DNA from: Tubulanus polymorphus
Lineage: Eukaryota > Nemertea > Palaeonemertea > Tubulaniformes > Tubulanidae
Assembly: GCF_964204645.1 (NCBI RefSeq)
Contig: NC_134025.1
Coordinates: forward strand, 13,397,001-13,461,000
Length of the DNA stretch: 64,000 nt
Direction: 5' to 3'
Shown in pieces: positions 15,696-37,659 of this stretch. Position 1 is the first letter of the stretch, and each line of letters opens with the position of its first letter. A program made the position numbers and the translations under genes. The notes below the pieces were generated by a model, which saw nothing but the letters and a program-made list of their open reading frames with translations, did no database searches and had not been told where the DNA came from.

Positions 15696-20274
<4,579 letters not shown>

Positions 20275-31481: not shown

Positions 31482-32555
31482 CTAGGTTGGCGATGTTACC
31501 AAAAGTGAGTCACTAGTTTTCGGTTCTTCATTACAATTGTTCGTATTTGTTAAATACAATCGAATATTTCCATTGTTTTGTTGGTCGTTGACATCGTAGT
31601 TGGGATGCTTCAGGTATTTCAGACATTTACTTAAATCCAGACAAGCATCTCGAATCGAACGATTCATACCACCGTAGATTATTGGGTTCAGTGAGGACGC
31701 TATTGCATACAAAGCAGTAACAATTACATATGCGTCGGGACTCAGTTGCCCGTCGCGGTCTGCCACACGGATCATTCCGTATGGGATGTATCCGATAAAG
31801 AACACTAAAAATACAACTGCAAACATTTTTGTAATTTGTATCTCATGCTGGACAGTTCGGTCGCGCATGCGAGATGTGCGGCCAGCTCGATGTATGAAGC
31901 AAAATATCACTGAGAAGCATATTGACACTACCATAAAAGGTATGAATATGATTACGGTTAAAACAGCAATCGTACGTTGCCCATACACGGGTGAAAACAC
32001 GCATCGCAGAAGTTTCGGCACATAAATTGTCATATCGATAATAAATGCAGGAATAACGAAGCAGAGAGGAATTATTCGGGTGACAACCATCACTACTGCT
32101 ACGTAGACCTGTTTTGATAGGCGTCTGTACATATTGTTTTGGCAGACGACAATATAGCGATGTATCGCAATGAATGCGTGATGCCACAGTGACGATCCAG
32201 CGATGAACATGCTGAATTCTGGCACAACAGCGCACAGCAACTTGCCCATTCGCCAGTCCATTTCGATGTATGACAATATGACAAACACCTGGTTGAAAAG
32301 GTTCAGCAAATCGTTGATACACAAACTGACAATGAATATGTTGACAACTTGTCCTCGCATGTCTGTGCGCCGAAGCAGACCCGTCAAAATCCATATTGTT
32401 CCGAGAATTCCAACGAGTAAGAATACAGACATAATTATGACCGCAATAACTGCCACAAGCCTTGTAGGTATCATTTCAGGCACAGTAGCATTTTCAGTAG
32501 TTTTTACTGGAAGCCTAATATAAGTCATGTTTTCTGTTGATCCGTTTTCATCCAT
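31482..32555 (-). CDS. class A (rhodopsin-like) GPCR, intronless, 357 aa
   Basis: Seen: a single uninterrupted frame. The ATG at 32555 was chosen over an in-frame GTG three codons upstream. The N-terminus has three N-glycosylation sequons (N4, N9, N22). Seven hydrophobic segments start near residue 33. Landmarks: D82 in SLCINDLL (2.50), C108 and C185 (likely disulfide), HRY at 132-134 in place of DRY, GYIP near 255-258 in place of CWxP, and NPIIY at 290-294. TM1 has GT where most family members have GN. Known: plasma-membrane receptor coupling to G proteins. The HRY/NPIIY combination and short loops resemble invertebrate orphan receptors of the moody/Tre1 or melatonin-like group, but this is only a loose likeness and the ligand is unknown. 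The tail is hydrophilic and Asn-rich. The coding frame is intact, so the gene is probably functional. A 39-nt piece of it recurs in the adjacent retroelement. Confidence 0.93.
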   Translation of the reverse strand: MDENGSTENMTYIRLPVKTTENATVPEMIPTRLVAVIAVIIMSVFLLVGILGTIWILTGLLRRTDMRGQVVNIFIVSLCINDLLNLFNQVFVILSYIEMDWRMGKLLCAVVPEFSMFIAGSSLWHHAFIAIHRYIVVCQNNMYRRLSKQVYVAVVMVVTRIIPLCFVIPAFIIDMTIYVPKLLRCVFSPVYGQRTIAVLTVIIFIPFMVVSICFSVIFCFIHRAGRTSRMRDRTVQHEIQITKMFAVVFLVFFIGYIPYGMIRVADRDGQLSPDAYVIVTALYAIASSLNPIIYGGMNRSIRDACLDLSKCLKYLKHPNYDVNDQQNNGNIRLYLTNTNNCNEEPKTSDSLLVTSPT

Positions 32556-33172: not shown

Positions 33173-33183
33173 CTTCCGGCACA

Positions 33184-33323
33184 TAAATGAATTTGAAATT
33201 ATACGATCAAATTAATTATTACGAAACCACAACGTTTCGGCTGTTGACTAACAGCCATCATCAGGTGGAATGACCAGAAAAACAAGTAACAAAGCATATA
33301 AACTCACAGGATCAAAATTCTAG
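33184..33323 (-). repeat. Penelope inverted left arm with hammerhead-like core
   Basis: Complementary to 36063-36190. On the minus strand it contains CTGATGA (33258-33264), a 7-bp stem-loop (GGCTGTT/AACAGCC) and GAAA (33235-33238), the conserved order of a hammerhead ribozyme core. Unlike the direct left arm, the core here is intact. Confidence 0.8.
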
Positions 33324-33362
33324 GACGACAATATAGCGATGTATCGCAATGAATTCGTGATG
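33324..33362 (-). other. 39-nt copy of GPCR coding sequence
   Basis: Matches 32145-32183 of the neighbouring receptor gene at 38 of 39 positions. On the minus strand the source encodes HHAFIAIHRYIVV; the copy changes Ala to Glu. It sits exactly at the junction between the inverted and direct left arms. The right junction overlaps the element at TGATG, a five-base microhomology. Confidence 0.88.
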
Positions 33363-33437
33363 ATGGCTGCTAGTCAACAGCCAAAACGTTGTGGTTTCGT
33401 AATAATTAATTTGATCGTATAATTTCAAATTTGAAGT

Positions 33438-35855
33438 GTGGGATTTCTTCATTTATCTACAGTTTACACGGATTATAGTGTTTATTCGACAACTAACATG
33501 ACTCCCACGGATTTATATTTCGCCTTGAACTTTTTCCTCGTGACGTATTTGATAACTTGTTACTGGAATTATGAAAAAGCTAACATCCGAGCTCATTGCA
33601 GTAAGGCTAGGATCCAGTTTCTACGTGACTGTTTGGATGAAAAAGTACTACCCAAGACTCTGGATTGGGTTAGGGAAATTCGATCGTGACTCGCCATTTC
33701 CAAACGAAGGTAGAACTGCTCTAAAAACGCCATCGCGGAAGCCCAAGAGGAGTGTGAGAGAAACTTTTATAAACTTCGACAAGCACAAAAAATTCTTCAA
33801 TCTCAAATACCGGACTTATTTCTTTGGAATCAACTTCGATCTCTAGTGAGACATTTGTCTAATGACAATAAACTTAAAAGATCCACCAACTATTTGCAAC
33901 AATTGGATACTCTAATCGACAAAAGCCCTTGGTCAAGTTTCAATAATATAGACAATGTCGTGAACCTTTCATCTACCGTTCTGTCTAAATCGCAAACACA
34001 AGTTCTTGGATACGGACTCAATTTTGCTTTACTGCACCAGAAACAACAACTTTTGGATTTTGTACGCCAACTCGAATACCAGAATCGCAACAGCATCAAT
34101 TACGGTTTCATATACATGAACCTAGAATCTATTTCAGACCAACTGAAAATTCAGTACAATGAATTTTTCCCGCACCGGTTTAGATCTGCCCTTAGTGAAC
34201 TTCGGAGAATTAAAACAATCCGCATCTCTAAATCAGACAAAGGAGGAAAAATTGTACTCATGGACATTGAATCGTATAAATCTAAAATGCAAGATCTACT
34301 TAACAATCCGAATGTTTACAAAAAACTCAAATCGAACCCGTTAAAAACAATGCAAAATAAAGTTAACAAAGGACTGTCGGACATTATTGCGAATTTTAAA
34401 GATGACAATGTTTCGAAAACGCTGGACAAATTTAAACCTCGGTTACCGTCGCTCCCTTATCTCTATGGACTACCGAAAATTCATAAGAAGGATATTCCAC
34501 TTCGACCGATCATCTCCAATTGTGATTCACCATCCTATAGACTATCTAAATATTTGGCTAAAACTCTTTCACCGGTTCTTGGCTCATTTTCGAATGCCCA
34601 TTTACGCCATAACCAGGACTTATTGGAATGTTTAAAAAATGTTATTCCTGGGCATGATAAATTTATATCTTTTGATGTTGCTAGCTTATTCACTAATGTT
34701 CCTTTAGAACCTACTTTGGACTTTCTTAGGAGAAAGTTACCTACTTTAGATTTTCATTTTGATATACCAGTTGATTGTCTTTTGGACTTAATTGAACTTT
34801 GTACAAAAAACTTATATTTTCAATTTGGTTCTAACTTTTTTGAACAGAGTTTTGGTATGGCTATGGGGAATCCACTTTCCCCTGTTCTTGCTGGTTTATT
34901 TTTGGAACATGTCGAAAGTGAAATTCTTCCTCTTTACACTGAAAGTAGACCCAAAATTTGGCGACGTTACGTTGATGATATTCTTTGTTTAGTTTCCCCC
35001 GATTTTAATGTGAATGGATTCTTACATTATTTGAACTCTTTATATCCTACTTTGAATTTCACTTTTGAGTGCGAAGAAAATAATTGCATCCCGTTTCTCG
35101 ATGAACTCATTCATAATTTCAAAATAAATTTGAAATTCTCTTTTTATAGAAAACCGACTAACGCTGAAGCTTATCTTCATTTTTTCTCATTTACTCCTTT
35201 GAACATCAAAATTGGAATAGCCCAAGGATTATTTCTTCGAGCTCTACGTATTTGTGATCAAATGTTTTTAGATAAAGAAATCAAACATATAAGAACTGCT
35301 CTCAAGAAACTAGCCTACCCAGACAAAATTTTGAACAAAGCTTATTTCAAAGCCCGAATTTTTCACTTTGGACATAACGACCTGACCACAAAACGCAGAG
35401 CTCAAAAGAATATTATAATCCCGTATTTACCTACTTTGGAACACTTTAAATCCACATTAAGCACCATTGACACTAGATTAGTCTTTCAGTATAATAACAA
35501 ACTCACTAATGTTTTAACCAAAAATAAACCCAACAGTGAGCTAATTGAGTCCGGGGTCTATAAGATACCATGTAAAGACTGTAATATGATGTACATCGGC
35601 GAAACGGGACGTAATCTCAGTCAGCGTATTAAAGAACACAAAATAGATATCCGCAACCAAAAGCCCGAGAGTGGAATAGCGAATCATGTCTTTACAACCA
35701 ATCACCAATTTGACTTTCAGAATTCGAAACTTATTTATCCTTGTAAAGATATTCATAAGAGACACATAGTGGAATCAGCCCTTATATGTAAACTTTCGAA
35801 ATCCAATTTATCAACTAATTTAAATACTGGTTTTTCTCCACATAACCAATTATAA
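33438..35855 (+). pseudogene. Penelope-like reverse transcriptase with GIY-YIG endonuclease; two in-frame stops near the start
   Basis: Seen: one frame runs from the left arm to TAA at 35855, interrupted only by TGA (33687-33689) and TAG (33711-33713). Upstream of the stops is the N-terminal block KARIQFLRDCLDEKVLPKTL. Downstream it reads AIAEAQEECERNFYKLRQAQ and into the RT. RT motifs: KSDKGGKIVLMD, LPYLYGLPKIHK, FDVASLFTNVPL, GMAMGNPLSPVLAG and the catalytic YVDD (34968-34979). The C-terminal GIY-YIG nuclease shows GVYKIPCKDC then MMYIGETGR (35553-35618), with the CxxC and His residues typical of Penelope endonucleases. Between the stops the +1 frame reads DSPFPNEGRTALKT, which looks like the original protein. 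The two stops are therefore better explained by a pair of compensating indels than by two nonsense mutations. The rest of the ORF is intact. The true start codon is not obvious. Confidence 0.93.
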
Positions 35856-36062
35856 TCCAGACACATCAACTCTTTATTGGATTTGGGTTGATGTCACTAT
35901 GTGTCACTCTGTTATCGGCACCCTCTTCGGTCCACTTCACATAGTTGCATATTAATTTGTTTTTACTCTGAACTGTTTAGAATTGCTGTGGTTTCCACGG
36001 TACCCCTTGATGTTTTATTGCTTGGTCTGTTTATCTTTAGTTTTGACACACTGCTTCTATTT

Positions 36063-36249
36063 TAGATCCTGTGAGTTTATATGCTTTGTTACTTGTTTTT
36101 CTGGTCATTCCACCTGATGATGGCTGTTAGTCAACAGCCGAAACGTTGTGGTTTCGTAATAATTAATTTGATTGTATAATTTCAAATTCGAAGTGTGGGA
36201 TTTCTTCATTTATCTACAGTTTACACGGATTATAGTGTTTATTCGACAA
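36063..36249 (+). repeat. Penelope right arm with hammerhead-like core
   Basis: Contains CTGATGA (36114-36120), the stem-loop GGCTGTT-AGTC-AACAGCC, then GAAA (36140-36143) and ACGTTGTGGT, where AC and GT could form the very short stem III described for Penelope hammerheads. Known: hammerhead motifs have been reported in Penelope-like elements. Stem I pairing is not evident, so self-cleavage is unproven. Confidence 0.75.
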
Positions 36250-36260
36250 CTTCCGGCACA

Positions 36261-36924
36261 ATTTCAATTTCAATTTCAATATCAATTTCAATTTCAATTT
36301 CAATTTATTCATCATAAATCCAAAGTATAAGATTGTGAATGAAGAAAACAACAATAATAACAAACAGACAAAAAACAAAAATGTGTGACACAAAGATGTC
36401 CACTAACAGAAAAATAATAAAAGGAGAGAGAACTAATACAATGTCTAACATATATATATATACAATATTATTTAAGTGATATTTACAAGCCCATGATATA
36501 TGAATTTCGCAATATTTAAGAAGATTGGTTTATTGGGATTAGTAAAGGCCGAAAGAAAAGTGTCTAGGTTTAGATTTACAATATCATATTTAGTTCTTAA
36601 ATTATCCTGCAGTTTACAATAAAAAAGAAAATGGGATTCATCGCTGACAGCGTTACAGTGAGGGCAAATACGATTTGGTTGAGCGATGCCGAGTCTCCTT
36701 CCTTTTTCAATTATAAGGTTATGACATGACATTCGAAGTTTTGATATTGCTGATTTTAGAGAGTGGTCTTTTAAGAATAATAAATATGGTTCTAGCTGAA
36801 ATTTAGATTTCATAGTTCTATAAAAGTTATACCGGCTGTGAGTTGGATCATTGATCTCTGAATTCCAAAAAATAAGAAAACCCTGCTGCATATATTTACA
36901 TACAATTCTAGTTGATCTGGTTAT
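36261..36924 (-). mobile_element. 5'-truncated non-LTR retrotransposon (LINE) 3' end
   Basis: On the minus strand the element ends in a tail of repeated TTGAAA units (36261-36305), typical of CR1/L2-type LINEs. It is truncated at 36924. It is bounded by ACTTCCGGCACA on both sides (36249-36260 and 36925-36936), a 12-bp target duplication. Only the last part of ORF2 remains. Confidence 0.82.
36472..36924 (-). pseudogene. C-terminal fragment of LINE ORF2
   Basis: Open from the truncation point through MQQGFLIFWNSE (ATG at 36891) to a stop at 36472, about 150 codons. It has the LKSAISKLRMSCHNLIIEKG and RICPHCNAVSDESHFLFYC blocks seen after the RT domain in CR1/L2-like ORF2 proteins. CPHC with the later His and Cys forms the CCHC-type knuckle. 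It has no endonuclease or RT and is not functional. Confidence 0.82.
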
Positions 36925-37659
36925 ACTTCCGGCACATGTATTGCACCAAATGAATGATGTGTACTTAAATGCACTTAGACGTACTAACTAATGAGACCTA
37001 CAAGAGGTATCCAAACACAATAAATAGATATAAAATCCATTTCAATGTGATGACAATCAGTACTAATATATCTGTTGTGTTTACACCACCCTATCTAGGC
37101 AGGGGAAATTTCAAGGACTGAGCATTCACACTGGCAAAATGCTAAACTGTTCCATTCCATTTTAGAACACACTAATTGAGAATAACGAAAAATACAAATG
37201 TAGGGTTTTTCTGGATTAGAGTTTTTTGTTTGAATAGAAACTTTGATCTAAATTACGAATGTAGGTAAGGTACAGGCCATTATAACAGAAAGCTAAAGCC
37301 TACCGCATACTTTTAATTATTAGTCGCAAACAGAAAGATTTTAAAATTTTCAGCAACTTTTGTTTAAATTGCCAACAGTTGCCATCTGGTCACCTGGGAC
37401 CGCAATGATTTGCACCACTTTTTGTAGCATTTGTGCCATTTTCTGATTTTTATCTGATCTGGCCCTGATATGCTGTATGTCATGTAATTCAAAGCAAAAT
37501 GTCAATGGTCACACCACACTAGGTGCCTGATGACATTTGAGCCAAAAATAGAGCCAGCAACCATTTGTCAGCCAAAAACTAGGCAATATTACAGCATATT
37601 TGTAGCTTGTGACGAAAATTGGCAACAAATCATCAAGAAATTGCATTGTGTGCAGTAGG

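Follow-up and report, generated by a model that had tools for sequence, protein, structure and literature searches.

The window, by which we mean the whole 64,000-nucleotide stretch of Tubulanus polymorphus DNA that was analysed, contains a rhodopsin-type GPCR gene and an endonuclease-bearing (GIY-YIG) Penelope-like element, within which lies a short filler that matches the receptor gene. The features concerned are as follows, in window coordinates.

31482..32555, reverse strand: GPCR gene, the filler donor, 357 amino acids in one open frame (7tm_1, E 4e-28)
32145..32183, reverse strand: source of the filler, codons HHAFIAIHRYIVV (38/39 match, 31-mer scan)
33173..33183, forward strand: left target-site duplication CTTCCGGCACA, 11 bp
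33184..33318, reverse strand: inverted arm, starting at the no-tail site, its main part identical to the 3' copy at 127/129 positions
33319..33323, forward strand: TCTAG, five bases between the inverted arm and the filler
33324..33362, forward strand: filler from the receptor gene, its last five bases (TGATG) common to the direct arm
33358..33494, forward strand: direct left arm (pseudo-LTR), 133/137 identical to the 3' copy and beginning at family position 260
33714..35855, forward strand: open frame with reverse transcriptase (RT) and GIY-YIG, 713 amino acids from stop to stop (RVT_1, E 2e-9; GIY-YIG, E 5.1e-5)
35856..36251, forward strand: 3' region, closed by the second, tail-bearing direct arm
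36250..36260, forward strand: right target-site duplication

The first-pass annotation had named a Penelope-like element as the host, and this identification is borne out by the RVT_1 and GIY-YIG domains, which both exceed the Pfam cut-off in a single frame, and by the combination of direct pseudo-LTRs with an inverted one that characterises such elements. The 3' copy that served as reference for the arms extends to 36252. Because family copies usually end in CT, the duplication around the window copy may be only 9 bp long, not 11. The 11-mer CTTCCGGCACA was found three times, at 33173, 36250 and 36926, the last being the point at which a LINE-like element on the reverse strand (36262-36925, with a (CAATTT)n tail and at least 50 genomic matches) breaks off and where its other copies continue differently (4/4); therefore the Penelope insertion coincides precisely with the target-site duplication of the LINE itself. 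An 18-nt stretch of the 3' copy, between two GAA repeats, is missing from the inverted arm near its outer end (33184-33200). Inspected by eye, the arm at 36112-36160 is composed of CTGATGA, a strong hairpin and GAAA (fold z-score -1.87), an arrangement that we take to resemble a hammerhead core; Rfam gave no match at gathering level, and no hammerhead match up to E 10. Hammerhead ribozymes occur in the pLTRs of many, though not all, endonuclease-containing Penelope-like elements. Many joins and truncations of family copies fall close to the start of this CTGATGA hairpin stretch. Elsewhere in the window, a perfect (AT)97 repeat occupies 17668-17862.

When positions 33324-33362 are aligned with 32145-32183 within the window, 38/39 bases are identical in the same orientation, at an offset of 1,179 bp from start to start, which confirms what had been noticed at first pass: a receptor match with one difference, in the same orientation and about 1.2 kb from its source. 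The end of the source lies 1,001 bp from the left end of the element. Read on the receptor strand, the lone mismatch converts HHAFIAIHRYIVV to HHEFIAIHRYIVV and turns a receptor Ala codon into Glu, and hence the derived base most likely sits in the element copy of the 39 nt. The first 31 of the filler's 39 bases, sought with up to three mismatches in the 267.8-Mb assembly, gave two matches, namely the source and the element copy, and the reversed 31-mer, used as a control, gave none. A capture that was local and confined to this copy, as had been proposed, is thereby upheld, and the contrary outcome named at the same time, the segment recurring in many Penelope copies, was looked for and not observed, 31/39 bases giving those two matches alone. 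On the same evidence, the 39 nt were rejected as a feature of the Penelope family, while a chance match to the receptor was rejected on the 38/39 identity together with the uniqueness of the 31-mer in 267.8 Mb. The best solved relative of the receptor is melatonin receptor 1B (E 1.8e-23), and among 38 matches to the receptor in the assembly there was no close paralogue, the next match having 28% protein identity, on which ground a paralogue was rejected as the source. The neighbouring receptor gene is the sole candidate source found for the filler.

The suggestion that such a capture offers a route to exon shuffling fared less well. The filler comprises 13 internal codons of one frame, with neither a whole exon nor an exon border; it runs antisense to the element, upstream of the direct arm, and is in no other copy, its 31-mer having no further genomic counterpart. 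We therefore retain from the earlier interpretation the Penelope host, the unique local capture and the TGATG join, but reject exon capture and shuffling; a source of new exons is unsupported here, and the filler makes no new gene. It is, rather, a real, local and one-off templated insert, and as such a useful footprint of Penelope integration.

For a wider view of the family, 58 stretches were sorted from a match table and by eye, comprising the window copy and 57 loci (L011-L067) drawn from the best 40 of 431 and the best 40 of 310 candidates. Twenty-four of the 58, the window copy included, have two arms, are independent and could be resolved at both ends; L014 is two-armed with its left end at neither canonical site; nine have the flanks of L017 and were counted with it as one insertion; and the other 24 have a single arm, are truncated or in tandem, or run off the edge of the retrieved stretch. 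Every independent resolved two-armed copy (24/24) has one outer end with a 36-nt tail and one without, and this exact pairing suggests that each target strand makes use of one of the two start sites. Among all the independent two-armed insertions examined, the rule holds in 24/27, the exceptions being L014 and two insertions with fillers (L072 and L073/L074, described below), which lack the two canonical ends. Exact flank repeats of 6-15 bp were detected by script in 23/24 two-armed copies, although in five the repeat measures only 6-7 bp and is therefore weak; the copy missed by the script, L011, has AATTCAT on both sides when inspected by eye.

The filler of the window copy occupies the inner seam between the inverted and direct arms, inside the duplication. 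Across the family the inner joins are spread over many positions. Six copies (L012, L016, L023, L028, L032 and L058) are joined symmetrically with a 7-nt loop, which, with the tail placed at the right, is GGTGGAA in three copies and TTCCACC in the other three; symmetric copies may be related by descent, and the 24 copies are not all independent joins. Other copies are joined asymmetrically, at arm positions of about 204/260 in the window, 205/110 in L014, 302/158 in L046, 322/240 in L047, 306/252 in L015 and 250/300 in L055, and asymmetric inner joins require two separate cDNAs. As an account of every copy, fold-back self-priming fails, for it does not explain asymmetric joins such as that of the window copy; the symmetric copies fit self-priming and a two-cDNA join alike. 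Judged from its sequence, the window copy, together with the five other asymmetric copies, appears to carry the hallmarks of twin priming, with putative cDNAs of opposite orientation between the duplications and a non-symmetric inner join.

The right join of the window copy falls at the CCATCATCA/TGATGATGG place (position 260), which is used by seven other copies, and the microhomology join through TGATG, common to filler and direct arm, is present at this junction as the first-pass annotation had described. The left junction has no clear microhomology, and the five bases TCTAG between arm and filler gave only short, scattered matches when their origin was sought. As measured by match spacing, the seam insert is 40 nt in the window copy and at most 19 nt in 22/23 other copies, L027 being complex and left out. 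The next largest inserts, in L022 (19 nt) and L029 (13 nt), resemble scrambled element sequence, and that of L017 (9 nt) is a CAT repeat; a local origin outside the element was found neither for L022 and L029 in 9.9 kb nor for L034 and L046 in about 0.5 kb. L017, L020, L021, L033, L036, L037, L039, L040, L041 and L052 together represent one palindromic insertion that has spread with its flanks; their seam CAT arrays vary in length, that of L037 being very long, and arms have suffered losses in L020 and L021. What has arisen at this Penelope seam is a new microsatellite.

Seam fillers were then sought across the genome using exact arm ends, AACAGCCATCATCA and TGATGATGGCTG, separated by gaps of 38-97 nt, a scan that diverged copies escape. 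Gaps of 68-97 nt returned 13 rows from eight places and gaps of 38-67 nt returned 22 rows from 11 places; three places are common to both ranges, giving 16 in all. By eye, 13/16 are element-like, the least sure being C3:22576841 and C9:12890763; long matches were judged on up to 80 letters. Non-element seam sequence is present at 3/16 places: the window, C1:31435062 (31 nt, L072) and C2:15935353 (41 nt, L073). The filler of L072 has no match elsewhere in the assembly at up to three mismatches, and no long match within about 3 kb. For that of L073, 40 nt of which were scanned at the same tolerance, there is one other match in the assembly, at C8:7349389 (L074), which was rejected as a source because L073 and L074 go back to one old insertion that was duplicated along with the DNA around it (about 93% over a length exceeding 1.2 kb); no source for this filler was found in the assembly at up to three mismatches. 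Non-element seam fillers recur, in three separate insertions, and a local origin is shown once, in the window.

What is established is how the insertion is built, that it is flanked by a duplication, that the filler has a unique source nearby, that microhomology is present, and that family copies are joined at the seam. Because the filler is placed at the inner seam where family copies join, its capture most likely belongs to the joining of two cDNA ends. We give odds slightly better than even, about 55%, to the reading that the 39 nt are templated filler, made during insertion of the Penelope element roughly 1 kb from the receptor, at a seam of two cDNAs closed by microhomology end joining. 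Both strands of the target would be nicked, and each would prime reverse transcription of the element RNA; priming at two start sites 36 nt apart, one per strand, would produce the inverted arm and the direct arm. While still being extended, the cDNA of the inverted arm would quit its RNA template and copy about 39 nt of the receptor locus on the same chromosome, whereupon its TGATG could anneal to CATCA in the opposite cDNA; microhomology end joining would then seal the annealed ends. Two-strand priming, a DNA template, the timing and the joining pathway are the parts of this scheme that we infer.

Copying in cis is favoured because the source lies about 1 kb away in a 268-Mb genome, in which simple arithmetic gives a random source a chance near 9e-6 of falling within 1.2 kb on either side. 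The pattern of ends across the family is what would be expected if each target strand primed once, from different sites, and so suggests such priming, and the filler is, like a theta-type templated insertion, a copy of DNA near the joint (38/39 from 1 kb away). Against the proposed mechanism stand the left join, with five unexplained bases and no clear microhomology, the local origin of only 1/3 non-element fillers, the symmetric copies, which suit fold-back self-priming equally well and may be related by descent, and the 3/27 two-armed copies without the canonical pair of ends. Such templated insertions are, moreover, described as usually shorter than 25 bp, against 39 nt here (PMC12426944), and the account of the Penelope-like element PAc reports no difference between strands in start site, and so does not demonstrate that each site is tied to one strand (PMC11167929). 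As a general model, we advance only tentatively, and with more doubt than confidence, that Penelope-like elements integrate by way of two cDNAs, begun at two RNA sites on opposite strands, whose free ends can copy sequence about 1 kb along the target chromosome before sealing; if true, seam fillers would preserve a trace of the contacts made locally along the chromosome as the element retrotransposed.

An unlikely alternative, though the strongest of those considered, is that RNA served as the template, and that the reverse transcriptase of the element switched to a receptor transcript, perhaps nascent in cis, and copied 39 nt of it. The receptor is transcribed from the reverse strand, so that its cDNA would read as the forward strand, like the inverted arm, and because the receptor frame is open and without introns, mRNA and DNA are indistinguishable as templates; yet a random transcript would seldom be that of the next gene, and only a nascent transcript in cis accounts for the distance of 1 kb. 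Less likely still is a later origin, in which a break at the inverted-repeat seam of a resident element was mended by a templated insertion copied from DNA close by. Inverted repeats are fragile, and seams of this family do alter after insertion, as the CAT array lengths and arm losses of the L017 group attest, but the join at position 260 is at a usual joining place in the family, and the inverted arm extends to about position 204, past the symmetric joins, making an extra loss unnecessary.

That the filler is an artefact of assembly or library is very improbable: it is known from one assembly, but the window is without any N, the assembly has large contigs (77 for 267.8 Mb), the filler has a base that its source does not, and non-element fillers are found at two other seams as well. 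Least credible is import of the filler within element RNA from an older copy elsewhere, with the nearby receptor a coincidence, for although rotifer Penelope elements contain captured host sequence (PMC3846280), this reading is nearly refuted by the 31-mer scan, which within three mismatches shows no third site in the assembly, and by the receptor search, in which the next match has 28% identity and the source is the neighbouring gene.

The reading of the filler as part of a two-cDNA join bears on the origin of the inverted pseudo-LTRs of Penelope-like elements, a question not yet settled: a proposal of 2013 invoked self-priming (PMC3846280), and in vitro work of 2024 showed that both strands are cut and extended and that there are two start sites (PMC11167929). 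The window copy, and the pattern of one end of each kind in 24/27 insertions, point to a seam between two cDNAs sealed by end joining; the host filler suggests that a free end reached neighbouring DNA, and thus hints at how Penelope insertions are stitched together. Events of this kind are already known; among the titles listed by a literature search that covered few subscription journals, none was found that appeared to trace a filler to a local source at the inverted-arm seam of a Penelope element.

Among known systems, the closest is PAc, the Poseidon element of Anolis carolinensis, which cuts and extends both target strands in vitro and begins reverse transcription at two adjacent internal sites bounding its tail (PMC11167929). 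The present family resembles it in a frame with RT and GIY-YIG, in its pseudo-LTRs and in a tail of 30-40 nt bounded by two start sites; a search of the PAc text by term found no mention of an inverted-arm seam, filler or microhomology (PMC11167929), whereas the present analysis sets out the genomic ends and the seam. Penelope of the rotifer Adineta vaga shares inverted and direct pLTRs, a tail at one inverted pLTR and captured host DNA, and has duplications of 8-10 bp; its captures, however, are spacers of 0.9-1.5 kb or whole genes (NRPS) between direct pLTRs, as against 39 nt at an inverted seam with a traced local source, and for inverted junctions self-priming was favoured by its authors (PMC3846280). 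LINE-1 copies with 5' inversions, attributed to twin priming, likewise combine an inverted 5' part, a duplication, microhomology at the inversion junction (PMC2912911) and occasional filler DNA (PMC2837659), although LINE-1 is another class of retrotransposon, and the inverted arm here begins at one recurrent site. Finally, polymerase-theta end joining yields flank-templated insertions with microhomology, and the filler resembles these in being copied from DNA near the break, with microhomology at one joint and interspersed bases of unknown origin (PMC12426944); it departs from them in its length of 39 nt instead of the usual <25 bp, in its source about 1 kb away, and in that the joined ends are read as cDNA.
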